From Acidimicrobiales bacterium (GTDB taxonomy: Bacteria > Actinomycetota > Acidimicrobiia > Acidimicrobiales > MedAcidi-G1), in contig JAQWTI010000012.1 of assembly GCA_029242745.1 (NCBI GenBank), forward strand, positions 62,001-126,000: a stretch of 64,000 bases of DNA. The letters run 5' to 3'. The first letter of the stretch is position 1; every line of letters begins with the position of its first letter. The notes under the pieces are model-generated. The model was given only the letters and a program-made list of their open reading frames with translations, was not told the origin of the DNA and made no database searches. The translations under genes and the position numbers were made by a program. Of this stretch, positions 1,836-35,561 are shown one piece after another.

Positions 1836-2873
1836 TCAGTCGAATGCGGGCATTACCTCGTCACAGAACAACTGCATGGAACGTTTCTGCTCTTCAAGAC
1901 CTAGGCCGAGACTCGCGTAGTAGATGAACTCGTCCACGCCGAGAGTTTCATAGCGGCGGAGTTTTGCGATGACCTCGGCTGGGGTACCAAACAGTAGGTT
2001 CTCGCTGAGGGTCTTTGGCTCGTAGTCCGCCGCATTTGACACCTGATCCATGGGGATAGTTCCCGGAAAGCCGTCATGAACGTCACCTAGGTTCTTAAAG
2101 AGGTTCTCGAACTGGCTGAGCTGACGCTGGGCGGCTTCCACAGGCACCATCCACTCCTCGACCGAGTCGTATACCACTGTGTGACGCATCAGGGCCCACG
2201 TGGGGGTTGGGCAACCGGGGTGATCGGCAATCGACTTGTCGAGTTGTGATCGGTAGAGCTCGGCTTCAGCAAACGGCCTCGCTATAGGCCACGACATAAC
2301 GTTGCAACCATTTTTCACGGCGTAGTCAAAAGTAATTGGTGATCGCGCAGCCACCCATATAGGTGGGTGGGGTTGTTGTAGAGGCTTAGGTACCGACGTT
2401 GATGTGGGAAATGACCACATTTCGCCGTTATGCGCATAGTCACCGGACCACAACTCCTTGAGGATGGGGAGCATTTCTTGCATGTAACGCCAGGCATCTG
2501 ACTGCTTCAGGCCGGGGCGCATACGATCGAATTCGCGTTGGTAGGCGCCTGATCCGATACCGAACTCAAGGCGACCACCGCTAATCAGATCAAGGAAAGC
2601 CGCTTCACCCGCCAGTTTGATGGGGTGCCAGTAGGCGGCTACAGCCACTGCAGAGCCAAGTCGGATCCGATCAGTATGACAAGCCCACCAAGTCAGAATC
2701 TGCAGCGGGTTAGGGGCGATGGTCATTTCGAGAGCGTGGTGTTCAGCGGCCCACGCAATGGTGAAACCACCTTCCTCCGCCATCTGGACCATCTCAAGGG
2801 TATGGCGGGCAACGTCGCCCATTAGGCGGCTGTCATCGAGTCGTTCCAAGTTGATAGCGAGTTGGAACTTCAT
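1836..2873 (-). CDS. Luciferase-like (LLM) flavin-dependent oxidoreductase
   Basis: A 345-residue bacterial luciferase-like TIM-barrel protein: N-terminal strand MKFQLAINLERLD, the WAAEHH motif near residue 41, and the GGRLEFGIGSGAYQREFD segment near residue 100. Enzymes of this group use FMN (or F420) and usually attack aldehydes, alkanes, sulfonates or small heterocycles; the substrate is not readable here. The ATG at 2873 has a GAGGAG ribosome site 9 bp upstream and overlaps the stop of the upstream PhyH gene by four bases (ATGA), so both are translated from one message. It converges on the AhpD-like gene with only 14 bp between stops. Confidence 0.85.
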   Translation of the reverse strand: MKFQLAINLERLDDSRLMGDVARHTLEMVQMAEEGGFTIAWAAEHHALEMTIAPNPLQILTWWACHTDRIRLGSAVAVAAYWHPIKLAGEAAFLDLISGGRLEFGIGSGAYQREFDRMRPGLKQSDAWRYMQEMLPILKELWSGDYAHNGEMWSFPTSTSVPKPLQQPHPPIWVAARSPITFDYAVKNGCNVMSWPIARPFAEAELYRSQLDKSIADHPGCPTPTWALMRHTVVYDSVEEWMVPVEAAQRQLSQFENLFKNLGDVHDGFPGTIPMDQVSNAADYEPKTLSENLLFGTPAEVIAKLRRYETLGVDEFIYYASLGLGLEEQKRSMQLFCDEVMPAFD

Positions 2874-3850
2874 GGCGAGGTCTCCTCGTCAGTGCCTGCA
2901 GGGTTTCTATGCGTAACCGGGTCACACCGAAGGTTGTATACAGAATCAGGATCAGGGCCCACGTGGATGACCGATGGCTTAACCAAGTTTGCAGAGATAG
3001 CCCCTAGGGGAAGCATCGGGAACCAGTCTTCCCGAAGTTTCTGTCCCTCAACCATTTCGTGACCATCAAATGGTGGGGAGGTCCGGCCACGGCGCTGAAC
3101 GTAACGAGCGTTGTCACCCACCATCCGTAGGGAAAAGGCACGACGGAGCCTTGAGGAGCCACGGGCCCCGTGGACAGTGCGATAGTGGAAAGCCACGGCG
3201 TCACCAGGCTCGCAGGCCCACTCGAGGACCTCGATCTGCTCTGGCTCGTTATCAGGATCCAGGGCGGGCTGAAAGCCGCCGCTGTGCCTTGTCTCGTCAT
3301 CACCGTAGAAACCTTGCATCGTGGTCCAGTCCACCGGGTGGACAGGTTCTTCCCAAAGGTGAGAGCCGCGAATTAACCGAAGTGTCGACTCCACCGGGAC
3401 AGGGTCCAACGGGATCCAGATACTGACCGTCTGCGGCCCATCGACGAAGTAGTAGGGCGCATCACAGTGCCATGGGGTATGGCGGGACGCCCCTGGTTCT
3501 TTAACCAGAACGTGATCGTGGAATAACTGCACAGTGGCGGACCGCATCAGCCCGGCTGCTACCTGCGCAATCCCCGACTGGAAGGCAAAGCTTTCGAATT
3601 CCGGTATGCGCGACCAGTTGCAGTAGTCATCCCAGAAGCGGCCCAGATCATTGGTTGTGCCGTTGTCATTGAAAAACTCACTGGGGTGAATTGCGTTTTG
3701 GGTTATTCCTCTGGTCAGAGTGTCAATCCAGTCAGTAAAGAGACCCCGTAGGTGTACGGCACCATCGGCAGCGAAAGTGTCTGCTAGATCAGCGCCCGCA
3801 CGGTGTAGGTGATCAAACACGAAGACAGCGTAGATGCCCGACGACGCCAT
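2870..3850 (-). CDS. Phytanoyl-CoA dioxygenase (PhyH) family protein
   Basis: A 326-residue Fe(II)/2-oxoglutarate dioxygenase. The metal triad is visible as His128-x-Asp130 (in PWHCDAPYYF) and His227 (in FHYRTVHGARG), followed by Arg residues at about 234-237 for 2-oxoglutarate. Substrates of this family range from phytanoyl-CoA to ectoine and small amines. The frame is open up to 4066, but the extra 72 residues are low-complexity and unlike PhyH, so the ATG at 3850 is preferred; its ribosome site is weak. It overlaps the downstream luciferase-like gene by 4 bp and is divergent from the M20 deacylase at 4086. Confidence 0.85.
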   Translation of the reverse strand: MASSGIYAVFVFDHLHRAGADLADTFAADGAVHLRGLFTDWIDTLTRGITQNAIHPSEFFNDNGTTNDLGRFWDDYCNWSRIPEFESFAFQSGIAQVAAGLMRSATVQLFHDHVLVKEPGASRHTPWHCDAPYYFVDGPQTVSIWIPLDPVPVESTLRLIRGSHLWEEPVHPVDWTTMQGFYGDDETRHSGGFQPALDPDNEPEQIEVLEWACEPGDAVAFHYRTVHGARGSSRLRRAFSLRMVGDNARYVQRRGRTSPPFDGHEMVEGQKLREDWFPMLPLGAISANLVKPSVIHVGPDPDSVYNLRCDPVTHRNPAGTDEETSP

Positions 3851-4085: not shown

Positions 4086-5273
4086 ATGCCTACGGAATTA
4101 ATGATGTCAGAGGTTGTTGGTCTGCTATCCGAACTGGTCGCCTGTGCCACAGAGAGCGGTTCATCAAACCTGGAACTAATTGACCACTACGCGCAGAGGG
4201 CGGTGGCAGCTGGCGCAGCGGTTGACGTAGTGGATGGTGCATCTGGTCGGGCCAATCTTCATCTCCGCTTCGGACCTGACGCGCCAGGAGGTGTTCTGTT
4301 TTCGGGCCATACAGACGTGGTGCCGGCCGGTGCGGGCTGGGCTACCAACCCTTACGTCCTTAACGAGGTCGGTGGCCGCTTTGCTGCGCGCGGGGCAGCC
4401 GATATGAAGGGCTTCCTGGCCGTGGCGCTGGTGGCCCTTGAACAAATTGATACAGATGCCCTCAGGGCGCCGGTCCATCTGGGGTTGAGCTACGACGAGG
4501 AGATTGGATGTGTTGGCGTTCACGGCCTTCTCGATGTGATAGCCGCTGGACGGTCGAGGGCCGGGACGTGTCTCCCAGAGGTCGTGGTAGTTGGTGAGCC
4601 CACAAATATGCGCCTTTGTAATGCACACGCTGGCAAAGTCGCTGAAAGGATAGACCTTGTTGCTGCATCTGGACATTCCAGCCACGCAGGCATTGAGCCC
4701 ACCGCAGTGCATGAAGCCGTCGTGCTTGCCGCACTTATCTATGGATTAAACGATGCGGACCGTGGTATCAGCGCCAACGTGGGGTCAATCCACGGTGGTT
4801 TGGCAGTCAACGTCCTCGCACCTTCGTGCACGCTGGAGTTTGAGATACGTCATAGTGCGGAAACCGATCCTGAAGAGGTGCTCAGCGGGGTGCGGGATGC
4901 AATAGCTGTTGCAGACTGCCGTCTCGCTGCAGTGGGTGGTCACGCCACCACTGAGTCATTCATTTGCTATCCGGGCCTATCCACTGATCCGATGTTGGCC
5001 CCTGTCGCTACTCTGATTGAATTGATAGGCCATGGTGCACCGGGTCCGGTGGGCTTCGGGACCGAGGCCGGTCTTTACACCAGCCGTCTGGGGGTACCTT
5101 CGGTGATCATTGGCCCAGGAAATATTAAGGACGCCCATCGACCTGATGAGTCTGTGGATCTCAACCAACTTCAGGAGTGCGCCAATGTACTCCCGCGCGT
5201 TATACACCAGTTCTGTTCAGATGGCAGCCCAACAGTCGCAGAGACGAGAAATCTTGATGACCATTCCCACTGA
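4086..5273 (+). CDS. M20 family deacylase, ArgE/acetylornithine deacetylase-like
   Basis: A 395-residue zinc hydrolase that removes an acyl group from an amino acid or related amine. Zinc and catalytic residues are all present: His75 and Asp77 in SGHTDVVP, Asp106 in RGAADMKGF, the Glu138-Glu139 pair in SYDEEIG, Glu171 in VGEPT, and the late His of DAHRPDES. The central dimerization domain lies around residues 190-300. It is not next to any arginine-synthesis gene; it leads a plus-strand run with an acyl-CoA dehydrogenase-like protein, a RidA-like protein and a Rieske oxygenase, so a catabolic N-acyl substrate is likelier than N-acetylornithine. ATGs at 4086, 4101 and 4104 are all possible starts; GGAG lies directly before 4086, and ACGGAA 9 bp before 4104. 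Confidence 0.85.
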   Translation: MPTELMMSEVVGLLSELVACATESGSSNLELIDHYAQRAVAAGAAVDVVDGASGRANLHLRFGPDAPGGVLFSGHTDVVPAGAGWATNPYVLNEVGGRFAARGAADMKGFLAVALVALEQIDTDALRAPVHLGLSYDEEIGCVGVHGLLDVIAAGRSRAGTCLPEVVVVGEPTNMRLCNAHAGKVAERIDLVAASGHSSHAGIEPTAVHEAVVLAALIYGLNDADRGISANVGSIHGGLAVNVLAPSCTLEFEIRHSAETDPEEVLSGVRDAIAVADCRLAAVGGHATTESFICYPGLSTDPMLAPVATLIELIGHGAPGPVGFGTEAGLYTSRLGVPSVIIGPGNIKDAHRPDESVDLNQLQECANVLPRVIHQFCSDGSPTVAETRNLDDHSH

Positions 5274-6522
5274 GGCCACGTCCATTGAATCAAGTGGTGC
5301 CGGGTCGTGGACGGAGGTACCAGACGTAGCGGAGGTTCTGTCAAGAATTGATGCTCTTGGTCCCAGATGGCGAGAACGCGCTCGGAAACTAGACGAAGCA
5401 GTCGAATACCCTTATGAGAACTTTGCCGAGGCGAAGGCTGCTGGGTTACACGCCTTGACCTTGCCCACCAAGTATGGCGGTGCCGGTTTTTGGCTGCCGG
5501 GACGGTATAGCCCTTGGTACCAGGCTCTTGAGCGGTTGGCCTGGTGGGAGACCAACACGGCTCAACTTCTCCAAGTCCACAACCATGCAGCAGGCATCAT
5601 CGCGTGGCACTCAACACCCGAGCAGCGTGAACGATTTCTGCCGGAGATTGCTGACGGGGCCATTTGTGCCTCGCTGGGATCGGAAGCCCATCTTTACGAG
5701 AATGGGGCTGAGGTTCTTGAAGCAGAGTTGATAAAGGTCAATGGGGGCTACCGCCTCACAGCCCGTAAAGGTTTTGCGTCAGTCGCTGTCGCTGCGAAGT
5801 ATCTGATGGTGTGGTGCGCTGTGGAGGGCGATGCTCCCTATGCGGGACGGATGCTCTTTGCCGTGGTTGACGTGGACTCTGATGGGGTAGAACTGCTGGA
5901 TGACTGGCAGATGTTGGGAATGAGGTCCACCATCTCCTGTGGGGTGAAGTTCAACGACGTGTTCGTACCCGATTCACACGTGGTAGGCAAGCCTGGTGGT
6001 TGGGTGACTGAGGACCCTCGAACGTTCTCGTGTGCTTACGCTTCGAACCATCTGGGGTCAGCCCAGGCGGCGTTCGACTTCCTCGCTGGTTACATCTCGA
6101 ACCGACCCGACCTTTGCGATTCGGAAGTGGTCCGAGTCAAGTTGGGCCAGATGGACGCGAGGCTGTTCGCCACCCGGGCCTGCCTGCAGGCCACCGCCAA
6201 ACGTCTTGATCAAGGGGACGATCCGGACGAGTGTGAGGCCGACGCTGTTCGCACTATGCACCTCGCTAAGGACGCTGTACTTACTATCCCCTATCAGGGT
6301 TTTGATTTAGTCGGGGCACGGGCCTGTCACGAGCGGTATCCACTGGGACAGATGATGCGCGATGCCCGAACCTTTACATTGCACTTCAGTGATGACCTCT
6401 ATGTGGAGCGCTTGGCTCAGTTGGCCCTCGGTAATGGTTTCTCGGCCAAGGGGGGCCGTGGGGGCTCAACACCTTTCGAGGTGGGAAGTGGTGCTAGCGG
6501 CCAGGCCACAGCTGGAGCCTGA
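5257..6522 (+). CDS. Acyl-CoA dehydrogenase-family flavoprotein
   Basis: A 421-residue protein with the full acyl-CoA dehydrogenase layout: N-terminal helical domain (residues 1-125), middle beta domain with ARKGFASVA and the KFNDVFVPD strand, and a C-terminal four-helix bundle ending YVERLAQLALG. It either dehydrogenates an acyl thioester with FAD or belongs to the flavin-monooxygenase branch of the fold; the catalytic base is not identifiable by eye. The ATG at 5257 (preceded by GAGACGAGA) overlaps the end of the M20 gene by 17 bp, indicating translational coupling; the frame stays open upstream to 5110 inside that gene. Confidence 0.82.
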   Translation: MTIPTEATSIESSGAGSWTEVPDVAEVLSRIDALGPRWRERARKLDEAVEYPYENFAEAKAAGLHALTLPTKYGGAGFWLPGRYSPWYQALERLAWWETNTAQLLQVHNHAAGIIAWHSTPEQRERFLPEIADGAICASLGSEAHLYENGAEVLEAELIKVNGGYRLTARKGFASVAVAAKYLMVWCAVEGDAPYAGRMLFAVVDVDSDGVELLDDWQMLGMRSTISCGVKFNDVFVPDSHVVGKPGGWVTEDPRTFSCAYASNHLGSAQAAFDFLAGYISNRPDLCDSEVVRVKLGQMDARLFATRACLQATAKRLDQGDDPDECEADAVRTMHLAKDAVLTIPYQGFDLVGARACHERYPLGQMMRDARTFTLHFSDDLYVERLAQLALGNGFSAKGGRGGSTPFEVGSGASGQATAGA

Positions 6523-6564
6523 ACGCGCGACAATCGCTGTTGTGACAAATGGAGCAGACTTCTA

Positions 6565-6981
6565 ATGACCACTCATCAGCGCATTCGTCCCTTTAATACG
6601 AAGGAGACGTACCCCGAACAGAACCTCGACAACGACCTCAGCCAAGTTGTGGTGGCCCGTGGGACCATGGTCTTCTTGCGGGGCCAAGTCGCTCAAGACC
6701 TCAACACTCGCGAGTCGCTACATCCCGGGGATGCTGGCGCCCAGACGGCAAAGACGATGGCCAACATTTCAATGTTGCTTGAGGAAGCGGGCTCTGAGAT
6801 GGGGCAGATCTGTCGGATCGTCGTGTACCTGATTGATATCCGGGACCGCGAGGAGGTCTACCAGGAGATGGGGAAGTGGCTAAAGGGTGTCTACCCGTGT
6901 TCAACTGGCATTGTGGTCTCTGCCCTAGCCCGCCCCGAGTGGCTGGTTGAGGTTGAGGCAACCGCTGTTATTCCAGATTGA
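6565..6981 (+). CDS. RidA/YjgF/UK114 family protein lacking the usual active-site Arg
   Basis: A 138-residue RidA-fold protein (VVVARGTMVFLRGQV opening, trimer-forming YLIDIRDREEVY, final EVEATAVI strand). Classical RidA hydrolyses reactive imines/enamines made by PLP or flavin enzymes and needs an Arg in the segment just before the last strands; here that segment reads YPCSTGIVVSAL with no Arg at the expected place, so it probably belongs to one of the divergent Rid groups found in catabolic operons. It lies 42 bp after the acyl-CoA dehydrogenase-like gene with a GGAG 10 bp before the ATG. Its job may be to process an imine or related nitrogen intermediate made by its neighbours. Confidence 0.85.
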   Translation: MTTHQRIRPFNTKETYPEQNLDNDLSQVVVARGTMVFLRGQVAQDLNTRESLHPGDAGAQTAKTMANISMLLEEAGSEMGQICRIVVYLIDIRDREEVYQEMGKWLKGVYPCSTGIVVSALARPEWLVEVEATAVIPD

Positions 6982-7019
6982 CCGGGACACTCGCCGGTCC
7001 GACTAAACCGTTAGGCAGC

Positions 7020-8180
7020 ATGATTTCTTCAACCCACACCGTGACTGCCGATGTGCTCGCAGACCTGCGCGCTGTTGCTGACGGACCACTATCTCTGGCT
7101 GTCAACATGCCATCCGCCATGTATCACTCCGAAGAGGTACTGGCTCTTGAACAGGAGCGAGCCTTCGGAAAAGACTGGGTATCACCTGGTCTTGCTGCTG
7201 AGATCCCAAGTGTAGGTGACCATCTAGTTTGGTCGATAGCTGGTCAGCCGGTGTTCTGCATTCGTGACGCTGAGGGTCGTATCCGGACGTTTTCCAATGT
7301 TTGTCGGCATCGGATGATGATGCTGATCGGTGGCGTCGGGAACAGTCGTCGCGTTACTTGCCCGTACCACTCTTGGACCTACGACTTGAGTGGACAGCTG
7401 GTGGGCACCAATCACATGGAAAAAACTGACGGTTTCGACAAGGCTGATATCTGCCTGCCGGAGATCCGGACCGAAATTTGGCAGGGCTGGATCTACTGCA
7501 CGCTGGATTCTGACGCCACGTCAGTCGCAAACTTGTTGGCCCCAATGGAACGGTTTGTGGCGCCTTATGGAGTGGCTGAGTACGTGCCGGTTCACCAAGT
7601 TGATGAAGTATGGACTGGGAACTGGAAGTTCCTCACCGAGAACTTCATGGAGGGCTATCACCTGCCATTTACACACCGGGCCACGCTCGGTACATGGATG
7701 CCGATGGACAGTGTGGTGTTTCCTGATGAACGCCATGGGGCGTTCACGTACCAGATGTTTGAGAAGGATGAGAGTGCCCAGTACGGCCGGGCACACCCAG
7801 ACAACGACCGGCTAGATGGAGCGCAACGGTCCACTACCTTCATGCCGACGGTGTTTCCGGCACATATGTACATTCTTGCCCCTGACCATCTCTGGTACTT
7901 ATCGTTACGTCCTAGGGGTACCGATCAGGTTGAACTTCGGTTTGGAATTGCGCTAGCTCCTGAGGTTCATGCCTCGCTTGTGGATCCAGAGGCATGGATC
8001 GCTGAGATGGTCGGCTTCTTCACTGCAGTTTGTGAAGAAGACCGGATGGTTGTCGAGGGTATTCACACTGGTTCACGTTCGTCGCTGGCTCAGCCGGGAC
8101 CATTAAGTTGGCTTGAACATGAACTCCACCACTTCATGGGTTATCTAGCCGACAGGCTGGCGCCTGCACCCGTGTCCTGA
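7020..8180 (+). CDS. Rieske non-heme iron oxygenase, alpha subunit (CntA/GbcA-like)
   Basis: A 386-residue ring-hydroxylating-type oxygenase. The Rieske cluster ligands are Cys95-x-His97 and Cys114-x-x-His117 (CRHR and CPYHSW). The mononuclear iron site is in ENFMEGYHLPFTH, His214 and His219, with Glu207-Asn208 before them. The EGYH form and the size are typical of the quaternary-amine branch that oxygenates carnitine or glycine betaine, although aromatic substrates cannot be excluded. No reductase partner is in the window. A TTG at 6978 overlapping the RidA stop could be an earlier start, but the ATG at 7020 suits the family better. Confidence 0.87.
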   Translation: MISSTHTVTADVLADLRAVADGPLSLAVNMPSAMYHSEEVLALEQERAFGKDWVSPGLAAEIPSVGDHLVWSIAGQPVFCIRDAEGRIRTFSNVCRHRMMMLIGGVGNSRRVTCPYHSWTYDLSGQLVGTNHMEKTDGFDKADICLPEIRTEIWQGWIYCTLDSDATSVANLLAPMERFVAPYGVAEYVPVHQVDEVWTGNWKFLTENFMEGYHLPFTHRATLGTWMPMDSVVFPDERHGAFTYQMFEKDESAQYGRAHPDNDRLDGAQRSTTFMPTVFPAHMYILAPDHLWYLSLRPRGTDQVELRFGIALAPEVHASLVDPEAWIAEMVGFFTAVCEEDRMVVEGIHTGSRSSLAQPGPLSWLEHELHHFMGYLADRLAPAPVS

Positions 8181-8201
8181 AACTGGATTTGGATTTTCTT
8201 T

Positions 8202-8879
8202 ATGACTTTTTCCCTCACTGGACATTGTGCTCGGACCGACATGGTCGGGGTGGCTATTACCACGTCATCGATTTCTGTTGGGTCTCGTTGCCCACATGCC
8301 CGGGGGGGTTTGGGGGCAGTAGCCACGCAGAACATCACTGATCCGTCACTAGCCACTCGGGTATTTGAGCGTCTTGACGCTGGTGATTCAGCCAGTGAGG
8401 CTGTGGCCACAGTCATGGAGGGCCGGGCCAACGCCGATTTTCGGCAGGTCGCCGTTGTCGACATGGCTGGGCGAACTGGGCATTTCACAGGCACCCAAAT
8501 TCTAGGAACTAACAGGGTTGTGGAAGGCAACCACTGCATTGCGGCAGGCAATCTCTTGTCGTCGCTGGAGGTACCGGCTGCCATGACGGTGGCGTTTGAG
8601 GGCAATCTCGACGCCCATCTTGCTGATCGTCTTCTACGAGGTCTGGAGGCTGGGTTAGCGGCGGGCGGCGAGGAAGGTTCCGTGCACTCTGCGGCTCTTG
8701 TCGTGCATCATGTGCACCCGTTTGCTCTGGTGGACCTGCGCTGTGACTGGGACGATGATGATCCAGTGGGAATACTCCGGAGGTTGTGGACAGACTATGA
8801 GCCACAGATGCAGGCCTACTTAGACCGCGCTATCCACCCCGGGGTGGCACCTAGTTATGGCGTACCTGGCGATCTGTGA
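8202..8879 (+). CDS. DUF1028 family protein
   Basis: A 225-residue DUF1028 protein: the TGHCARTDMVGVAITTSS opening, the ARGGLGAVATQNITDP motif, GNLLSSLEVPAAM in the middle, and the terminal APSYGVPGDL. The fold is thought to be Ntn-hydrolase-like; family members recur beside amidases, deacylases and RidA proteins in amine or amide catabolic clusters, which fits this neighbourhood. The biochemical role is unknown. It follows the Rieske gene by 21 bp and is probably in the same operon. After the TGA the frame stays open for 30 more codons, but nothing suggests that they are translated. Confidence 0.82.
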   Translation: MTFSLTGHCARTDMVGVAITTSSISVGSRCPHARGGLGAVATQNITDPSLATRVFERLDAGDSASEAVATVMEGRANADFRQVAVVDMAGRTGHFTGTQILGTNRVVEGNHCIAAGNLLSSLEVPAAMTVAFEGNLDAHLADRLLRGLEAGLAAGGEEGSVHSAALVVHHVHPFALVDLRCDWDDDDPVGILRRLWTDYEPQMQAYLDRAIHPGVAPSYGVPGDL

Positions 8880-10334: not shown

Positions 10335-11519
10335 ATGCCGGACGTGGAGCTACCGTTTAGTCGTCAGGAGTATGCCGACCGCCTAGCCAAAGTGCGAGCG
10401 TCAATGGAAACTCAAGGCATTGAGGTGCTGGTGGCCGCCGACCCGTCCAACATGTCTTGGCTAACTGGTTACGACGGATGGTCGTTTTACACACCGCAGG
10501 CTGTCGTGGTCACACACGATGGCGAGCCATGGTGGTGGGGGCGCCGCATGGATGCCAGAGGCGCCCGTCTTACTGTGTACATGGATGAGTCTCAGATTCT
10601 CGACTACTCCGACGACCACGTGATGTCGACCGACAAGCATGCCTTCGGGCAACTAGCGGGCTTGCTAGAAGGTATGGGCCACGGATCGTCTGCTATCGGT
10701 GTGGAACTAGACAACTACTACTACTCGGCAGCCGCCCATCAGCACTTGTGTACTGGATTACCCGATGCCACGGTGGTCGATGCCACTGCGCTTGTGAACT
10801 GGGAGCGGGGCATCAAGTCGGTGCAAGAACTGGAATATATGGGCAGGGCAGCCCGCATCGTGGAGAGGATGCACGCCAGAATCCGGGAGGTTATTGAGCC
10901 AGGTATGCGGAAGTGTGATCTTGTTGCTGAGATTTACGCAGTTGGTATCTCTGGTACCAAAGATTTTGGTGGCGACTATCCGGCCTTCGTTCCTTTAGTG
11001 CCCACCGGGGCCGATGCATCGGCCCCTCACCTCACATGGGACGATAAGCCCCTGAAGGTGGGAGAGGGTTCGTTTTTTGAGATCGCTGGTGCCCATCGCC
11101 GCTACCAACTGCCGTTGTGTCGGACCACGTTCCTTGGGAGGCCACCTGATGAGATGCGTCGGGCAGAAAAGGCAGTATTGGCCGGCCTGGAAGCCGGATT
11201 AAACGCAGCGCGTGCAGGAAGTCGGGCCTGTGACATGGCGCGGACCTTCTTCTCAGTGATGGAGGACGCTGGTTTTCACAAAGAGGGCCGCTGCGGCTAC
11301 CCGATTGGTATTAGTTATCCGCCGGACTGGGGAGAGCGGACTATCTCGTTGCGGACGTCCGATGAATCGGTGTTGGAACCGGGTATGACCTTTCACTTCA
11401 TGCCTGGCCTCTGGATGGACACCTGGGGACTGGAGATTACCGAGAGCTTTGTAGTCGTTGCTGACGGGCCGGGTGAGCCACTGGCCAACGTGTCACGCGG
11501 CATCCACGTGAAGGTCTGA
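10335..11519 (+). CDS. doeA: Ectoine hydrolase-like M24 peptidase-fold enzyme (DoeA type)
   Basis: A 394-residue creatinase/prolidase-fold protein. The N-terminal stretch DPSNMSWLTGYDGWSFYTPQ and the downstream WWWGRRMDARGA follow the pattern I know from ectoine hydrolase DoeA/EutD, which opens the ectoine ring to N-acetyl-L-2,4-diaminobutyrate. The C-terminal pita-bread domain holds ITESFVV. An aminopeptidase P relative remains possible, but the next gene, a deacylase one base downstream, is what an N-acetyl product would require. It has a good ribosome site (AGGGAGA) before the ATG. Confidence 0.82.
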   Translation: MPDVELPFSRQEYADRLAKVRASMETQGIEVLVAADPSNMSWLTGYDGWSFYTPQAVVVTHDGEPWWWGRRMDARGARLTVYMDESQILDYSDDHVMSTDKHAFGQLAGLLEGMGHGSSAIGVELDNYYYSAAAHQHLCTGLPDATVVDATALVNWERGIKSVQELEYMGRAARIVERMHARIREVIEPGMRKCDLVAEIYAVGISGTKDFGGDYPAFVPLVPTGADASAPHLTWDDKPLKVGEGSFFEIAGAHRRYQLPLCRTTFLGRPPDEMRRAEKAVLAGLEAGLNAARAGSRACDMARTFFSVMEDAGFHKEGRCGYPIGISYPPDWGERTISLRTSDESVLEPGMTFHFMPGLWMDTWGLEITESFVVVADGPGEPLANVSRGIHVKV

Positions 11520-11520
11520 C

Positions 11521-12741
11521 ATGGTGCCCATCTTGACCGGCATCGAACCGGCTGACGTAGATGACATGTTGGCCATCCTGGACGAACTTATTGCTTATGA
11601 GACCGTCGCTCTCACTCCGAACCTTGATCTGATCCACTCCGTTCGGGATCGCCTCGAAGCGCTTGGCGCATCAGTCGTGCTGACCCATCACGTAGACGGC
11701 ACCCGGGCCAACTTGTTCGCAACCATTGGTCCCGACGTGTCTGGAGGCATTGTGTTGTCCGGCCACTCCGACGTGGTACCTGTAGATCCTGCTGACTGGA
11801 CCACGCCGCCGTTTGAGGCCCATCGTCGTGACGGTCGGATCTATGGGAGGGGTACGGCGGACATGAAAGGCTTCATTGCCTGTGTGCTGGCCATGGCTCC
11901 AACGTTCGCCGCCCTAGATCTGATCGTGCCTATCCATGTGGCCCTGACCTTTGATGAGGAGGACGGCTTCCACGGAGCGCCAGTCCTGCTAGCGGACCTG
12001 GTGGACCGAGGCGTGCGTCCGGCTGTCGCAGTGATCGGCGAGCCGACCGGCCTGCGGACCGTGGGTGCCCACAAGGGGTGCTACGAGTACCGCACAACGG
12101 TGACCGGTATGAATGGGCACAGTGCGGCACCAGCAGATGCAGTTAGCGCTGTGCACTACGCCACCCGTTGGATCGCTGGGCTACTCGGACTGGATGAGGA
12201 ACTGGTTGCCCGGGCACCGGACCCCAGTCCGTACGCGCCACCTTCGACAACGTTCAACGTGGGAACGATCTCCGGCGGGCAAGGTCGGTGCGTAGTAGCC
12301 GATCGCTGCTGGTTTGATTGGGAGATGCGCCCCGTGCAAGCTAGCGACGCGGCGTTCGTGAAGGAACGGATGGCCGTTGTCGAGGACTTCCTGCTAGCTG
12401 ACATGTGGGCGGTCCATCCCGGTGCGAGCATCGAGACTGAGGTGGTGGGTGAGATCGATGGGTTGGAATGGGAGGAGTCCTCGCCGGCACTTGAACTGAT
12501 GCGTGACCTGCTGGTCAATACGTCTGGTCCGGGAGGCGTGGGTGTCGACGGTGTCCTGCCGGTCGACGTGGTGTCGTATGGAACCGAGGCAGGACTGTTC
12601 CAGGCGGTGGGCATTCCGGCGGTCCTTTGGGGTCCGGGCGACATCGGTGTGGCCCATCGACCCGACGAGTTTGTGGAGGTTGCTGATCTCGAAGCCTGCC
12701 TTTCACTACTTGTCCGATTGGGAAGCCACCTGACTCGCTAA
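11521..12741 (+). CDS. M20 family deacetylase (ArgE-like), probable partner of DoeA
   Basis: A 406-residue zinc deacylase. Motifs are SGHSDVVP, GRGTADMKGF, TFDEEDGFHG, IGEPTGLRTVGAHKG and AHRPDEFVE, i.e. the complete ArgE/DapE metal site. It starts one base after the DoeA stop. The classical deacetylase for the DoeA product (DoeB) belongs to the aspartoacylase family, so an M20 enzyme here may be a non-homologous replacement that frees 2,4-diaminobutyrate. This is inference from order. The arginine pathway role is less likely because no arg genes are near. A second M20 gene of the same type is at 4086. Confidence 0.83.
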   Translation: MVPILTGIEPADVDDMLAILDELIAYETVALTPNLDLIHSVRDRLEALGASVVLTHHVDGTRANLFATIGPDVSGGIVLSGHSDVVPVDPADWTTPPFEAHRRDGRIYGRGTADMKGFIACVLAMAPTFAALDLIVPIHVALTFDEEDGFHGAPVLLADLVDRGVRPAVAVIGEPTGLRTVGAHKGCYEYRTTVTGMNGHSAAPADAVSAVHYATRWIAGLLGLDEELVARAPDPSPYAPPSTTFNVGTISGGQGRCVVADRCWFDWEMRPVQASDAAFVKERMAVVEDFLLADMWAVHPGASIETEVVGEIDGLEWEESSPALELMRDLLVNTSGPGGVGVDGVLPVDVVSYGTEAGLFQAVGIPAVLWGPGDIGVAHRPDEFVEVADLEACLSLLVRLGSHLTR

Positions 12742-12768
12742 GGGTCAGGTGGCTGAAGGGTCTCGCTT

Positions 12769-13641
12769 ATGGATGTCGTCGACCCAGATACGTCACTGCT
12801 GGCCACGGGGTTCCATACCGACGGATTCGCGGTGGTTGATCGTCTGGTGTCGCCGGAGCTGATCGATCCGTTGCGCGAGCGGTTCGAACGACTTTTCCGG
12901 GGCGGTTTCGAGACTGGGGTGCCACCTGATGAGATCAACTGGCAGGAGGGCTTGGCAGATCCGACGCTTACCCGTCAGATCTGCAACGCTTGGAAGGCCG
13001 ATCGACTGGTCGCCACTGTGGTCCTTTCGGCACGTCTTGGTGAGTCGCTGGCTCGCCTAGCCGGGTGGCCGGGAGCCCGGATTATCCAGGACAATCTGTT
13101 GTGGAAGCCCCCTGGGGCTCGTTCAGTAGGCTTCCACCGAGATAACGCCTACCTCGCTTGGTACCGGCCACAGCAGATGGCCACATGCTGGATAGCACTC
13201 GACCAGACTTCGAGTGAGACGGGAACGGTGTCCTTTGTCCAAGGGTCCCACCGGTGGGCCACCGACGGTGATCCGGCCATGGAGTTCCATGCTCCAGCCG
13301 ACTATCGGGCTCCCATGGAGGAGGCGGCGGCGGCGGAGGGAGTCCGTCCCGAAATAGTGCCAGTAGAGGTGCCGGCTGGTGGTGGTTCCTTCCACCACGG
13401 CTGGACCTGGCACGGTTCAGACGTCAACCGATCCAATGTGCACCGACGGGTGCTGGTGCTGCACTGTGCCAGCAGCGAGGCTCGGTTCCACCGGCCAGGG
13501 TTTGGGGTGGGCAACGGCCCGATCTACTCCCGGTATGCGCACTCCGATGACGACGTGATGGACGAGGCCCACTTCCCAGTGCTGTGGACCGCCTCTGGCC
13601 ACCGGACATCGGGTCTAGACAGTCTCACGGATCCGTTATAG
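12769..13641 (+). CDS. Phytanoyl-CoA dioxygenase (PhyH) family protein
   Basis: A 290-residue Fe(II)/2-oxoglutarate oxygenase with His123-x-Asp125 (GFHRDNAYLAWY) and His215 (GWTWHGSDVNRS). It differs clearly from the PhyH proteins at 2870 and 9424, with an insert rich in Ala/Glu around residues 180-195. It lies 27 bp after the M20 gene and 78 bp before xsc, in the same direction. A substrate in ectoine, taurine or sulfonate metabolism is possible from position alone. Confidence 0.84.
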   Translation: MDVVDPDTSLLATGFHTDGFAVVDRLVSPELIDPLRERFERLFRGGFETGVPPDEINWQEGLADPTLTRQICNAWKADRLVATVVLSARLGESLARLAGWPGARIIQDNLLWKPPGARSVGFHRDNAYLAWYRPQQMATCWIALDQTSSETGTVSFVQGSHRWATDGDPAMEFHAPADYRAPMEEAAAAEGVRPEIVPVEVPAGGGSFHHGWTWHGSDVNRSNVHRRVLVLHCASSEARFHRPGFGVGNGPIYSRYAHSDDDVMDEAHFPVLWTASGHRTSGLDSLTDPL

Positions 13642-13719
13642 ATTCTCACTTCTACGCGCTGAGCAGACCGAACCGGTGGCGCGTTCCTGATCGAATCCCG
13701 ACCCGGTAGGAGTGCACCG

Positions 13720-15486
13720 ATGACCCGCATGACCCCTAGTGAGGCCTTCGTCGAGACGATGGCGGCCAACGGTGTGGACACCATCTTTGGCATCATGGGA
13801 TCGGCGTTTATGGACGCCATGGACATATTCGCTCCGGCGGGCATCCGCCTAGTGCCTGTAGTGCACGAGCAGGGTGCTGGCCACATGGCCGATGGGTACG
13901 CAAGAGTTAGTGGTCGACACGGAGTGGTCATTGGTCAAAACGGCCCCGGTATCTCCAATTGTGTTACCGCGATCGCCGGCGCTTTCTGGGCACACAGCCC
14001 GGTGGTCATGATCACACCCGAAACCGGGACCATGGGTCAGGGTCTGGGTGGATTTCAGGAGGCAAACCAGCTTCCGATGTTCCAGGAGTTTGTTAAGTAT
14101 CAGGGCCACATCGCCAACGAGCACCGGATGGCTGAGATCACGGCCCGATGTTTCGACAGAGCGATGTCTGAGCTCGGACCTACCCAACTGAACATCCCGC
14201 GCGACCGCTTCTACGGTGAAATCGATGTCGAGATCCCGGAACCGATGGTTCTGGACCGCGGTCCGGGTGGCGATGCCAGCCTAGATGAGGCGGCTGACCT
14301 GCTGGCTACCGCCGAGTTCCCGGTCATGGTTTCCGGTGGTGGTGTGGTCATGGGTGACGCCATGGCCGATGCCATTGTCCTGGCAGAGAGGCTGGGCTGT
14401 CCCGTGGTGAACAGTTACCTGCATAACGACTCGTTCCCGGCTAGCCACCCGCAGTGGTGTGGTCCGCTGGGTTACCAAGGGTCCAAGGCGGCCATGAAGC
14501 TCATCGCGCGCGCCGACGTAGTCCTGGCTCTGGGCACCCGGCTTGGACCTTTTGGCACCCTGCCTCAGCACGATATGGATTACTGGCCTGCCGATGCCAA
14601 GATTGTTCAGGTTGACGCAGACCACAAGATGCTTGGCCTTGTCAAGAAGATATCTGTCGGTATCTGTGGTGATGCTGGAGCTGCCGCTAGGTCACTGACT
14701 GGCCGCTTAGCCGACCGGACCCTGACTTGCGATGCCACCCGTGACGAGAGGGCTCAGGCCACTGCTACCGAGAAGCAGGCCTGGGAGGACGAGCTTGACG
14801 AATGGACACATGAGGTCGACGACTTCAGCATCGAGATGATCAAGGAGTCGATAGACGAGGAGGGGAACTGGCTACACCCCCGCCAAGTACTCCGCGAGTT
14901 GGAGAAGGCCATGCCTGCCCGCGTAATGGTCTCAACCGACATCGGCAACATCAATTCTGTGGCCAATAGTTATATGCGCTTTGAGGAGCCCCGATCGTTC
15001 TTCGCTGCGATGAGTTGGGGTAACTGTGGGTATGCACTACCGACAATTATTGGTGCGAAGGCGGCTGCCCCTGACCGGCCAGCTGTCTCGTTCGCAGGTG
15101 ATGGAGCTTGGGCTATGAGCATGGTTGAGATCATGACAGCGGTGCGTCATGACCTGCCGGTGACGGCGGTGGTGTTTCACAACCGGCAGTGGGGAGCTGA
15201 GAAGAAGAACCAGGTTGACTTCTACGGGCGCCGATTCGTGGCCGGTGAGCTAGACGGGGGTGAGGACTATTCTGAGATTGCACGGGCCATGGGTGCCGAC
15301 GGGGTCCGTGTTGACCAACTAGACGAGGTCGGTCCGGCCCTAGAAGCAGCGATTTCTGCTCAGATGAACGACCGACGGACCACGGTTATCGAAATCATGT
15401 GCACTAAGGAACTAGGTGATCCATTCCGGAAGGATGCGTTGTCGCGACCGGTTCGATACCTTGATCAGTACGCCGACTTTGTCTGA
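13720..15486 (+). CDS. xsc: Sulfoacetaldehyde acetyltransferase
   Basis: A 588-residue ThDP enzyme that converts sulfoacetaldehyde and phosphate to acetyl phosphate and sulfite, the last carbon step of taurine, isethionate and related C2-sulfonate breakdown. The N-terminal ThDP glutamate is in VVHEQGAGHMADGYAR (Glu50), and the cofactor motif GDGAW lies near residue 459. Segments that are nearly diagnostic for Xsc are FGIMGSAFMDAMD, NRQWGAEKKNQVDFYGRRF and the tail CTKELGDPFRKDALSRPVRY. There is a strong TAGGAG ribosome site before the ATG. No phosphate acetyltransferase, sulfite exporter or taurine transporter gene is in the window; a class III aminotransferase at 51817 might supply sulfoacetaldehyde from taurine. 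Confidence 0.95.
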   Translation: MTRMTPSEAFVETMAANGVDTIFGIMGSAFMDAMDIFAPAGIRLVPVVHEQGAGHMADGYARVSGRHGVVIGQNGPGISNCVTAIAGAFWAHSPVVMITPETGTMGQGLGGFQEANQLPMFQEFVKYQGHIANEHRMAEITARCFDRAMSELGPTQLNIPRDRFYGEIDVEIPEPMVLDRGPGGDASLDEAADLLATAEFPVMVSGGGVVMGDAMADAIVLAERLGCPVVNSYLHNDSFPASHPQWCGPLGYQGSKAAMKLIARADVVLALGTRLGPFGTLPQHDMDYWPADAKIVQVDADHKMLGLVKKISVGICGDAGAAARSLTGRLADRTLTCDATRDERAQATATEKQAWEDELDEWTHEVDDFSIEMIKESIDEEGNWLHPRQVLRELEKAMPARVMVSTDIGNINSVANSYMRFEEPRSFFAAMSWGNCGYALPTIIGAKAAAPDRPAVSFAGDGAWAMSMVEIMTAVRHDLPVTAVVFHNRQWGAEKKNQVDFYGRRFVAGELDGGEDYSEIARAMGADGVRVDQLDEVGPALEAAISAQMNDRRTTVIEIMCTKELGDPFRKDALSRPVRYLDQYADFV

Positions 15487-31636: not shown

Positions 31637-32956
31637 CTACATCTCTCGTCCGGACCGCATTCGCAGCCGCTTGGCGTACAAGTTCACACCCCAGCCGAGC
31701 AGCGGGTCGGAGAGGTTTCGGTTGGGCCGTCCCCTGGCCAGCATCCCGTCTAGCAGGTCTGAGCCCTCACCACAGACCATTTCGGCTATGAGCTTTCCAC
31801 AGATCGCTCCGCGACTCAGCCCTGTGCCGTTGTGGACCAGCGCACCGTGGATGCCGTCTGCGAGGCTCCCAAAGACTGGTTCACCGTTGCGGGCCATGGA
31901 CAGCGCCCCACCCCATGAGTAGTCGAACGGCACATGTGCCAGGCCGGGAAACCGGTGTTCGAAGGCCACCCGGTGGGCCTTGGCAGCCCGACGCCGGACT
32001 CGGTCGCCCGCCGTAGAGTGGCGGCTATAGCTATAGACATTGCGGATCAGGATTCGGCCGTCGACTAGGCGTCGGACGGTGGTGCCGGAAGGTGCCGCTG
32101 GGATCACGCCCCAGGTCAGATCGCCACCTATCGAATCTGACTCCTCTTCGGTGAGCGGTCGCGTCATGGACCCCCAGGTCACAACAGGAATGAGGTGGCG
32201 GGCGTAGAAGCCGAAGCCGACAGCGAAGCCGTTGTTGGCCAGCACAATTTCTGGCGAGCGGATAGTTCCACCGTCGGTGTGTAGCTGGTGGGGTGGGCCC
32301 TGTTCGAGCCAGGTGACTGGGGTTTCCTCGTGGATAGTCACGTTGGACGGTAGAGACGCGGCCAGACCTCTACAGAGTGCAGCCGGCTGCATCAGCACTG
32401 TCCCGGGGGTATGAAGCGCTCGGTGGTAGTAGTCGATCCCCAGCCGCGCCACGGTCGCGTCGCGGTCCATTAGTTCGTAGTCCTCATCGATGAGGTCGAG
32501 TGTGGCTGCGAAGTGGTCTAGGTCCCGTGATCCACGATCTGTACACGCAGCGTGGATCTTTCCGGCCCAAGTCCAGTCGCAGTCGATGTCGTGAGCTGCC
32601 ACCGCCTCGGCCAGGTAGGCCTGTCCGGCCCTGTTCAGGGCGATCTGCTGCTTCTCGTATGCGGCTGAGTCGGCGAAGCCTTCGGAGCGGATGTTGTGGG
32701 CGTGGTCGATGGCGAAGCCGGACGAACGCCCGGCAGCGCTGTTTCCGATCCGACCCGCCTCGAGGAGGAGGATCCGGGCATCTGGACGTAGTTCAGCCAG
32801 CCTGCGGGCGGCGGCTAGCCCCGTGAACCCGGCACCCACGACGACCACGTCAGCTTCCGTGGGACCGGAGAGCGGAGCGGCCGGCGGCACCTCAATCAGG
32901 GTTTCGAACCAGCCGTTGTTCCTGTCGTATCTGGGTAGGAGCGTGACGGCACCCAT
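31637..32956 (-). CDS. FAD-dependent amine oxidoreductase, PuuB-like (DAO family)
   Basis: A 439-residue flavoprotein with the leader YDRNNGWFETL, dinucleotide motif VVVGAGFTGLAAARR near residue 36, and the C-terminal FAD loop WGGALSMARNGEPVFGSL ... HNGTGLSRGA. It resembles gamma-glutamylputrescine oxidase (PuuB) and related enzymes that turn a primary or secondary amine into an aldehyde. The adjacent PuuC-like aldehyde dehydrogenase, 33 bp upstream, could oxidise that aldehyde. No PuuA-type ligase is present, so the real substrate is probably not gamma-glutamylputrescine. Confidence 0.84.
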   Translation of the reverse strand: MGAVTLLPRYDRNNGWFETLIEVPPAAPLSGPTEADVVVVGAGFTGLAAARRLAELRPDARILLLEAGRIGNSAAGRSSGFAIDHAHNIRSEGFADSAAYEKQQIALNRAGQAYLAEAVAAHDIDCDWTWAGKIHAACTDRGSRDLDHFAATLDLIDEDYELMDRDATVARLGIDYYHRALHTPGTVLMQPAALCRGLAASLPSNVTIHEETPVTWLEQGPPHQLHTDGGTIRSPEIVLANNGFAVGFGFYARHLIPVVTWGSMTRPLTEEESDSIGGDLTWGVIPAAPSGTTVRRLVDGRILIRNVYSYSRHSTAGDRVRRRAAKAHRVAFEHRFPGLAHVPFDYSWGGALSMARNGEPVFGSLADGIHGALVHNGTGLSRGAICGKLIAEMVCGEGSDLLDGMLARGRPNRNLSDPLLGWGVNLYAKRLRMRSGREM

Positions 32957-32989
32957 CGCAGTCTCCCTCGTCCGATCAGTGGACCACCA

Positions 32990-34486
32990 TCAGGAAAGGT
33001 CCATCCAGATGGTTTTCAGCTCGGTGTACTGCTCGTGGGCGGCGATCGACTTGTCCCGGCCACCGAAGCCTGATTGCTTAAATCCACCGAAGGGCGTGGT
33101 GATATCGCCCTCGCCGTAGCAGTTCACGGCGACCGTTCCGGCCCGGATGGCCCTTGATGCTAGGTGGGCAGTGCGAAGGTCGGTGGTGTGGATGGTGGCG
33201 GCTAGCCCGTAGTCAGTGTCGTTGGCAAGACGGATGGCCTCTTCCGGTGTGTCGAAGGCGGTCACAGCAAGGACTGGTCCGAAGACCTCGTCGCGGGCCA
33301 GGCGGCTGGAGGGGTCTACGTTTGTAAAGACGGTGGGTTCCACGAACCAGCCCCCGCTTTCTTGTCTAACCCGCTTACCACCCACTGCACATGTCGATCC
33401 GGCTTCGTGGGCAGCAGCGATGTGGCCCAGCACCTTGTCCAGGTGGTCCTCTTCAATCATTGCACCCACGGTCGTCTCAGCCACTAGGGGGTCACCGACC
33501 ACCCAGTCGTGGCTACGTTCGGCGATTCGCTCCAGGAGCTCGTCAGCGACTGATTGTTGGACGATAAGCCGGGAGTTGGCGCTGCAATTCTGCCCACCGT
33601 TCCAAAAGATGCCCTCGCAGATGCCGATTGCCGCAGCGTCCAGGTCGTCGGCGTCAGCCATGACGATGACAGGGCTCTTGCCGCCGCACTCCAGCAGCAC
33701 CTCCTTGAGGTTGGAGTCGGCAGAGTAGCGAAGGAAGTGACGGCCTACTTCGGTAGAGCCGGTGAAGGCCACACAGTCCACGTCGGAGTGCAGGCCGATG
33801 GCTGCCCCAGCTGTCTCCCCGAATCCGGGGACCACGTTGAACACGCCATCGGGGATGCCGGCCTCGATGGCGAGTTCAGCGATGCGGATGGTTGACATGG
33901 AGGTCTGCTCGGCTGGCTTGACGATGCAGGTATTGCCGGCGGCCAGGATCGGACCGATCTTCCAGCCAGCCATCATGAGTGGGTAGTTCCATGGCAGCAC
34001 GGCGCCCACCACTCCGATGGGCTCGCGCACGACCATTCCGACCCGGCCGGGGCCTGAGGGTGATAGCTGGTCGTAGAGCTTGTCTGCTGCCTCGGCATGC
34101 CATCGCAGAGTGGTCACGAGGTCGGGTACGTCGAGGCCTGAGCAGTCACTAATCGGTTTGCCAGCCTCCAGTGTCTCGATGATGGCCAGCTCATCGGCGT
34201 GGGCCTCGACGAGCGAGGCGAACCGCAGGATTAGACGCTTGCGGTCTGCTGGAGCGAGGCGCCCCCACGGCCCGCTCTCAAAGGCCCTTCGGGCCGCAAT
34301 GACCGCCCGGTTGACGTCTTCTGCATCGCACTCGGCGATCTGGGCCAGTTCACGACCGGTGGCCGGATTGAGGGTGGCGAAGGTCTGTCCAGAGGCTGAT
34401 TCGACGCTTCGGCCGCCGATGACAGCGCGGGTGGGTGGATTGATCGACGCGGCCAGTGCGGTCGGGTCGGCGAGGTCGAGTGCCAT
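32990..34486 (-). CDS. NAD-dependent aldehyde dehydrogenase, PuuC-like
   Basis: A 498-residue class I aldehyde dehydrogenase: PWNYPLMMAGWK, GSTEVGRH, Glu in LLECGGKSP, Cys in GGQNCSANSR, and the ending FGGFKQSGFGGRDKS ... YTELKTIWMDL, which is close to PuuC and betaine-aldehyde dehydrogenases. The ATG at 34486 shares one base with the upstream stop (TAATG) and has GGAG 9 bp before it; the frame extends up to 34582 but those residues are unlike the family. Confidence 0.88.
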   Translation of the reverse strand: MALDLADPTALAASINPPTRAVIGGRSVESASGQTFATLNPATGRELAQIAECDAEDVNRAVIAARRAFESGPWGRLAPADRKRLILRFASLVEAHADELAIIETLEAGKPISDCSGLDVPDLVTTLRWHAEAADKLYDQLSPSGPGRVGMVVREPIGVVGAVLPWNYPLMMAGWKIGPILAAGNTCIVKPAEQTSMSTIRIAELAIEAGIPDGVFNVVPGFGETAGAAIGLHSDVDCVAFTGSTEVGRHFLRYSADSNLKEVLLECGGKSPVIVMADADDLDAAAIGICEGIFWNGGQNCSANSRLIVQQSVADELLERIAERSHDWVVGDPLVAETTVGAMIEEDHLDKVLGHIAAAHEAGSTCAVGGKRVRQESGGWFVEPTVFTNVDPSSRLARDEVFGPVLAVTAFDTPEEAIRLANDTDYGLAATIHTTDLRTAHLASRAIRAGTVAVNCYGEGDITTPFGGFKQSGFGGRDKSIAAHEQYTELKTIWMDLS

Positions 34487-35535: not shown

Positions 35536-35561
35536 GTCGTGTCCTGTTCGAAGGCTCAGGG

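Follow-up and report, generated by a model that had tools for sequence, protein, structure and literature searches.

A five-gene operon of an Acidimicrobiales bacterium as a candidate imidazole degradation pathway of the hin type

The window analyzed here is a 64,000-nucleotide stretch of contig JAQWTI010000012.1 from an Acidimicrobiales bacterium (assembly GCA_029242745.1). It contains an operon encoding an M20 deacylase, a flavoprotein with an acyl-CoA dehydrogenase-like (ACAD) fold, a Rid protein, a Rieske oxygenase and a DUF1028 protein. We consider it probable that the operon serves to degrade an imidazole compound aerobically, following the scheme of the hin (histamine/imidazoleacetate) pathway with two parts exchanged. 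The observations behind this proposal are the gene order and its conservation, the exchange of Rieske oxygenase and DUF1028 for imidazolonepropionase (HutI) and histamine dehydrogenase in relatives, and the Rid, DUF1028 and M20 proteins shared with hin-type clusters. An earlier note on this DNA had described five genes in a row with a 17-bp overlap and short gaps; its coordinates and overlap were reproduced, with all five open reading frames on the plus strand. They are listed here with a divergent neighbor.

4086..5273, plus strand: M20 deacylase, ArgE-like (M20 and dimerization domains, PF01546/PF07687, above cut-off); proposed HinG role
5257..6522, plus strand: ACAD-fold flavoprotein (Pfam Acyl-CoA_dh domains); proposed ring monooxygenase, HinF role
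6565..6981, plus strand: Rid protein, HinL type (PF01042, L-PSP); proposed formimino hydrolysis
7020..8180, plus strand: Rieske oxygenase (PF00355 and PF00848, Ring_hydroxyl_A); proposed entry enzyme (C–N cleavage or N-demethylation)
8202..8879, plus strand: DUF1028 protein (PF06267, 199 bits); proposed imidazolone ring hydrolase, HinH role
2870..3850, minus strand: PhyH dioxygenase, divergent neighbor; candidate accessory enzyme

The overlap lies between the end of the M20 gene and the ACAD start (ATG 5257). Gaps of 42 bp and 21 bp separate ACAD from Rid and Rieske from DUF1028, respectively. For the Rieske gene TTG 6978 is also open, but ATG 7020 is preferred because relatives align from it; for PhyH, ATG 3850 is likelier than TTG 4066.

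Conservation of the five-gene unit

The search sample comprised 61 genomes, namely the window's own (G000) and 60 relatives. Sixteen of them have a full-length ACAD ortholog (100% identity in the own genome, 78–87% in the others), including 13 of 16 same-genus and 2 of 20 same-family relatives. Pieces were found in G017 and G013, and all remaining matches score 105 bits or less. The same-genus exceptions are G007 and G011, which lack an ACAD ortholog, and G013, in which only M20 and an ACAD fragment are present. This G013 locus (L036:10371-11731) pairs M20 with a 65% ACAD fragment, and no Rid, Rieske or DUF1028 gene was seen in the 20 kb stretch.

Thirteen of the 16 ACAD genomes, the own genome among them, have all five genes in the order M20-ACAD-Rid-Rieske-DUF1028. 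Contig ends interrupt the run in the other three (G012, G016, and G010), with Rieske-DUF1028 located on a second contig in G012. The M20 gene of G010 (L014:1-1118) is split over two frames, reflecting an assembly error or a frameshift. Chance adjacency of the five genes was rejected, since the order is conserved across the ACAD genomes; the gene-order search thereby bore out the earlier proposal of a single unit with a conserved neighborhood in related genomes.

A contig scan with two peptide patterns returned 19 loci, most of which were the same genomes again. By title, 17 belong to Acidimicrobiia/Actinomycetes (one Ca. Poriferisocius), one to a Gemmatimonadetes bin and one to a ‘bacterium’. 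Going by record names, some of these loci are probably from seawater and L053–L057 from sponges, the hosts of the latter probably being sponge-associated Acidimicrobiia. Several relatives have a LysR gene upstream of the operon, and PhyH and MttB genes downstream of DUF1028. None of the three stands at those flanking places in the window, and the own genome's best LysR match is 27%.

Exchange of operon parts and the link to hin

Twenty-two ACAD loci were compared, 18 of which extend to the slot after Rid; the other four, two of them from one genome, end before it. The slot is filled by Rieske and DUF1028 in 12 loci and by HutI in six, and none of the 18 combines Rieske and DUF1028 with HutI. 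Histamine dehydrogenase accompanies HutI in five of the six HutI loci, and the sixth ends at a contig end. L053–L057 retain M20, ACAD (69–78% identity) and Rid, followed by HutI and, in four of the five, a histamine dehydrogenase-like protein (the L053 contig ends first). G017, from the window's own family, has the order ACAD (piece)-Rid-HutI-histamine dehydrogenase, adjoining the same PhyH gene as in the window; its Rid is 84% identical to the window Rid, and its histamine dehydrogenase 69% to that of L054.

All three HutI proteins tested score above the curated cut-off of 298.15 bits (323.2 and 304.6 in the L053–L057 set, 305.2 in G017). For the one swap partner tested, histamine dehydrogenase is the closest match (3k30, 958 bits; 6de6, 838 bits), ahead of trimethylamine dehydrogenase at 477 bits. 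Both operon versions have the same ACAD, Rid and M20 genes and the same ACAD-Rid order, whereas HutI and histamine dehydrogenase replace DUF1028 and Rieske in L053–L057 and G017, and PotA- and PotD-like genes lie upstream in L053–L056. M20 stands apart in L057 and is unseen in G017, where the contig ends. Across the 61 genomes, histamine dehydrogenase exceeds 860 bits in three (G017, G053, and G060), and no further pathway gene adjoins it in G053 and G060, both of which lack ACAD. HutI is above cut-off in 14 genomes; the own genome is not one of them (best 45 bits) and lacks a close histamine dehydrogenase (best 138 bits).

The second link is to the hin pathway, which proceeds through imidazolone acetate, formiminoaspartate and formylaspartate. 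The published order is hinF (FAD monooxygenase, EC 1.14.13.5), hinL (enamine deaminase), hinH (amidase) and hinG (EC 3.5.1.8; ‘probable peptidic bond hydrolase’) (PMC8231116, PMC6467879). The nearest plasmid DUF1028 homologs lie in three Burkholderiales regions (Ideonella, B. multivorans, and Caballeronia) with the order NAD(P)/FAD oxidoreductase-RidA-DUF1028-argE, and were taken as hinFLHG because gene order and annotation match. The window proteins are 55–57% (Rid), 49–54% (DUF1028) and 34–37% (M20, here M20a) identical to these sets. Homologs of the proteins at the HinL, HinH and HinG positions thus occur together in the window operon, and the trio was also seen in Burkholderiales and other clusters, in agreement with the earlier remark that deacylase, Rid and DUF1028 travel together. 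The likely functional counterparts are M20 for HinG, Rid for HinL and DUF1028 for HinH. A HinF-type FAD monooxygenase is absent from the operon's own genome; the idea of one elsewhere in it was rejected, the best match reaching 23 bits.

The hinFLHG unit of Pseudomonas resembles the same-order Burkholderiales sets and the window operon in uniting Rid, DUF1028, an M20-type hydrolase and a flavin monooxygenase, and resembles several relatives of the window operon in its LysR gene. In contrast to it, the window operon has a monooxygenase of the ACAD fold rather than HinF type, a Rieske gene between Rid and DUF1028, and no HinC/HinD. In the actinomycete G668, a run of HinF-type, Rid, DUF1028, M20 amidohydrolase and aspartase genes is accompanied by a divergent aldehyde dehydrogenase gene. 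Its HinF-type protein is 69% identical to that of Ideonella, its Rid 69% to the window Rid and its DUF1028 52% to the Ideonella protein, while the aspartase scores 728.7 bits (subfamily cut-off 510). In gene content G668 resembles the Brevibacterium hin set (PMC6467879). HinF-type matches at E≤1e-90 occur in 8 of 396 phylum genomes. Among four neighborhoods examined, only G668 has Rid and DUF1028 beside the HinF-type gene; those of G531 (65%; contig end 1.2 kb off), G349 and G690 (44–45%) show no adjoining Rid or DUF1028. Sinorhizobium RAC02 has a Rid 82% identical to the window's and an HpaB 79% identical to that of the Caballeronia SBC2 plasmid, with no Rieske gene in the stretch examined.

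Two observations allow the substrate class to be narrowed to imidazole compounds: in relatives the same core pairs with HutI and histamine dehydrogenase, and elsewhere Rid, DUF1028 and M20 pair with a hinFLHG-type set. The earlier note could not name the compound; we regard an imidazole-ring pathway as quite likely.

Enzyme roles and competing readings

We infer every chemical step, and the substrate of the first, as follows. The Rieske oxygenase would act on side-chain amine or N-methyl groups of an imidazole compound to yield imidazoleacetate, directly or via the aldehyde. The ACAD-fold flavoprotein, standing in for the unrelated HinF, would hydroxylate the ring to an imidazolone, which DUF1028 would open (the job of HutI in the sister operons) to a formimino amino acid, formiminoaspartate. 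The HinL-type Rid would then hydrolyze the formimino group to formyl, and M20 would strip the formyl group to leave aspartate. M20 would thus probably cleave the N-acyl bond of a formyl amino acid formed within the pathway, and not that of an N-acylated substrate as had been suggested.

The M20 protein scores 268.9 bits against TIGR01892, under the cut-off of 297.7; its invariant residues H75, D77, D106, E138, E139, E171, and H351 presumably correspond to the M20 metal ligands. All 21 HinL-type Rids aligned carry the signature FNT[KRS].TYP.Q.L[DN]NDL. At the RidA Arg position, set by alignment with NMB1025, 20 of them have Ser and one has Cys. According to PMC4433059, this conserved Arg is needed for imine hydrolysis, and Ser replaces it in about 10% of RidA proteins. 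The nine Rid-linked DUF1028 proteins aligned all begin Met1-Thr2 and all end in APSYGV.G, a motif found in neither of two other DUF1028 proteins. The sole solved DUF1028 relative found is 2imh, which we take to have a fold of the Ntn (N-terminal nucleophile hydrolase) type; such enzymes would expose a nucleophilic Thr, Ser or Cys at position 2. We lean toward a ring hydrolase function for DUF1028.

The best solved relative of the Rieske oxygenase is CntA (6y8j, 126 bits, N-terminal half only). The protein contains the motifs CRH...CPYH and NFMEGYHLPFTH, and keeps the mononuclear-site His pair (H214, H219) and the bridging-Glu position (E211), as in Group V (CntA, GbcA, and Stc2); CntA residue numbering and the bridging Glu of quaternary-ammonium enzymes follow PMC7948474. 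The earlier label of CntA/GbcA-like stands in that these are the nearest types, but the relationship is a distant one (126 and 139 bits). Rieske and catalytic domains and the bridging-Glu position are shared with the carnitine monooxygenase CntA and the glycine betaine monooxygenase GbcA, whereas Phe209 takes the place of CntA Tyr203 and a Cys-X-X-Cys pair is missing. This pair lies beside the iron in some Group V Rieske oxygenases, as stated in PMC10952381; Gly212 and Leu215 occupy its positions in the window protein, and Ser or Gly, then Leu, in other DUF1028-linked Rieske proteins aligned.

Twenty-four of the 25 best plasmid Rieske homologs were checked, 14 by reading the region and 10 by coordinates, with Caballeronia SBC1 left out. 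DUF1028 lies within about 10 kb in 20 of the 24 (Caballeronia, Paraburkholderia, Burkholderia, Paracoccus, Tropicibacter, Pseudosulfitobacter, and Thioclava), many of these plasmids being closely related Burkholderiaceae and not independent. The four without a nearby DUF1028 are from Roseovarius (50%), Parasedimentitalea, Gemmobacter, and Aminobacter; that of Roseovarius pelagicus (L129:11932-13083) stands near choline dehydrogenase, aldehyde dehydrogenase, 3-keto-5-aminohexanoate cleavage and sarcosine oxidase genes. No DUF1028 was found near five distant Rieske controls (24–29%) or three Acidimicrobiia relatives at 34–36% (one near a contig end). All ten Rieske and DUF1028 plasmid regions that were read contain a flavoprotein, of HinF type (FMO-type) in nine (66–100% to the Caballeronia M1242 query, itself one of the nine) and an HpaB/HpaC pair in SBC2. 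Eight of the ten have an M20 (argE) homolog. These plasmid clusters (Caballeronia, Paraburkholderia, Paracoccus, Tropicibacter, Pseudosulfitobacter, and Thioclava) share Rieske (39–45%), Rid and DUF1028 with the window operon and LysR with several of its relatives, and differ in their flavin monooxygenase and in a PotA-like ABC (ATP-binding cassette) gene, present in seven of ten.

Judged by these neighborhoods, the Rieske enzyme is part of the putative pathway across phyla, and its probable role is to convert an amine or N-methyl precursor into an imidazole acid or aldehyde. The balance tips slightly toward a C–N-cleaving or N-demethylating entry enzyme. Because Rieske occupies the place of histamine dehydrogenase in the sister operons, it would be most economical for the product to be at the imidazole acetaldehyde level, through C–N cleavage of the kind that CntA performs on carnitine; N-demethylation of a methylimidazole acid ranks second. 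N-methylation of the substrate is plausible.

General catabolism of N-acyl amino acids or betaines, in which no imidazole takes part, M20 deacylates the substrate, the ACAD oxidizes it and the Rieske demethylates a betaine, would suit the ArgE-like M20, the affinity of the Rieske to CntA/GbcA, the PhyH and MttB genes after DUF1028 in several relatives and the gene context of the Roseovarius Rieske. We nevertheless think it unlikely, as it leaves unexplained both the swap to HutI and histamine dehydrogenase beside the same ACAD and Rid, and the hin-type sets, one with aspartase. A shade less likely still, the Rieske rather than the ACAD could attack the imidazole ring by dioxygenation, leaving side-chain or N-oxidation to the ACAD-fold protein. 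Ring hydroxylation is established as common among Rieske oxygenases, and a nitrososynthase is among the solved ACAD relatives; however, the ACAD is in both operon versions and the Rieske in one only, every one of the ten plasmid regions has its own FMO- or HpaB-type flavoprotein, and the bridging-Glu position is that of quaternary-ammonium enzymes (PMC7948474).

In the imidazole pathway as we propose it, ring hydroxylation falls to the ACAD-fold protein. Its N- and C-terminal Acyl-CoA_dh domains are above the Pfam cut-off and the middle domain below; the best NCBIfam models, SfnB and DszC, are far under their cut-offs. Solved relatives include DszC, a nitrososynthase and methanesulfinate monooxygenase. 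Phe377, invariant in all ten ACAD sequences, aligns with moderate confidence to the Glu of the IYEGT stretch of 7xp7, which we take to be the catalytic residue of acyl-CoA dehydrogenases; alignment with three other ACADs of the window was uninformative at this column. The protein seems to lack the catalytic Glu, and is probably a monooxygenase rather than the acyl-CoA dehydrogenase-like enzyme first supposed; a ring monooxygenase replacing HinF is the role we favor. Predicted models of the Rieske and ACAD proteins were of low confidence (mean predicted local distance difference test scores of 37.4 and 38.8, from alignments with 8 and 10 similar rows). A true acyl-CoA dehydrogenase in an operon handling a CoA thioester, to which the Pfam domains and the names of the best solved matches would point, is highly improbable given the invariant Phe and the lack of any recognized CoA-using enzyme among the recurring operon parts (family-library runs on part of the neighbors).

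Several points weigh against the proposed imidazole pathway. The operon contains no gene for an aldehyde dehydrogenase or a Rieske reductase, and four of the 16 ACAD genomes (G012, G014, G019, and G021) have an above-cut-off HutI at another place. The best solved matches of the ACAD carry acyl-CoA dehydrogenase names, the Phe377 column is aligned with the moderate confidence given above, and the nearest plasmid Rieske (50%, Roseovarius) stands outside a DUF1028 context. The putative equation of DUF1028 with HinH draws its support from gene order and annotation, and from the aspartase cluster. DUF1028 also occurs outside such clusters (35–42% relatives in G009, G010, and G037–G039), and two enterobacterial Rid-DUF1028-argE regions have no adjoining monooxygenase. 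A paralog, M20b (11521-12741), is nearer to the Burkholderiales M20 proteins (40–42%) than M20a. In G668, M20 belongs to another subfamily (TIGR01891), and the aspartase, at 663.9 bits, is just under the aspA equivalog cut-off of 681.2 and is placed differently from the Brevibacterium set, where an aspartase tag is next to HinF (PMC6467879).

The enterobacterial regions (L080 and L081, Pantoea and E. coli plasmids) also carry ABC, quinone oxidoreductase, GST-like (glutathione S-transferase) and dehydroquinase-like genes. Klebsiella accounts for 105 of 280 plasmid records with a DUF1028 match.

Neighboring genes and significance

For 13 of the 16 ACAD genomes the retrieved sequence includes the PhyH gene, which lies 3–5 kb off in G019 and G021; it is absent in G001 and G008, and G010 is cut. 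It also adjoins HutI and histamine dehydrogenase in G017. The window PhyH is 43% identical to one beside the SBC2 Rieske/DUF1028 cluster, which in turn has a 71% relative at the C. grimmiae cluster. PhyH is a possible accessory enzyme of the pathway.

Further genes group at 10335-15486, comprising a DoeA-like ectoine hydrolase (TIGR02993, 592.7 bits; cut-off 613), a second M20 deacylase, PhyH and Xsc (997.8 bits; cut-off 676.4). Parts of this set, which suggests ectoine and C2-sulfonate use, adjoin the five-gene operon in many relatives with a long enough contig. On the minus strand, 31637-37139 encodes what by eye are an FAD oxidoreductase, aldehyde dehydrogenase, dihydrodipicolinate-synthase-like protein and MttB look-alikes, presumably a candidate set for hydroxyproline betaine use; a similar set with an added racemase is on a Leisingera plasmid (L143).

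Degradation of homarine or trigonelline was rejected, as the literature search pointed to no gene set that matched. The word DUF1028 was not found in the literature searched. Among the matches listed, no paper mentioned both histamine dehydrogenase and imidazolonepropionase, and none of the best 15 of 349 matches listed mentioned hercynine or methylhistamine.

The comparisons suggest that the operon is a variation on the known hin pathway, with a putative Rieske entry enzyme and a putative ACAD-fold monooxygenase as the exchanged parts. More tentatively, and at somewhat less than even chances, it may represent a Rieske-initiated pathway, unreported to date, that degrades N-methylated or quaternary imidazoles (e.g., N-methylated histamines, methylimidazoleacetate, hercynine, and zooanemonin) in Acidimicrobiia and, with other parts, in Burkholderiales and Rhodobacterales. 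In such a route, the methylated nitrogen would be stripped or cleaved off by Rieske, ring hydroxylation would fall to one of three flavin monooxygenases (HinF, HpaB, or ACAD-fold), and DUF1028 would be an imidazolone ring hydrolase interchangeable with HutI. The proposal provides a testable biochemical role for DUF1028, and for Rid proteins in which Ser replaces the imine-hydrolase Arg. It suggests that three different flavoproteins serve one ring-hydroxylation step, and that three bacterial groups have drawn a Rieske enzyme into an imidazole pathway. Should the substrate prove to be a methylated imidazole, the operon would represent an organic-nitrogen route in sea and soil that is undescribed as far as the literature was searched.

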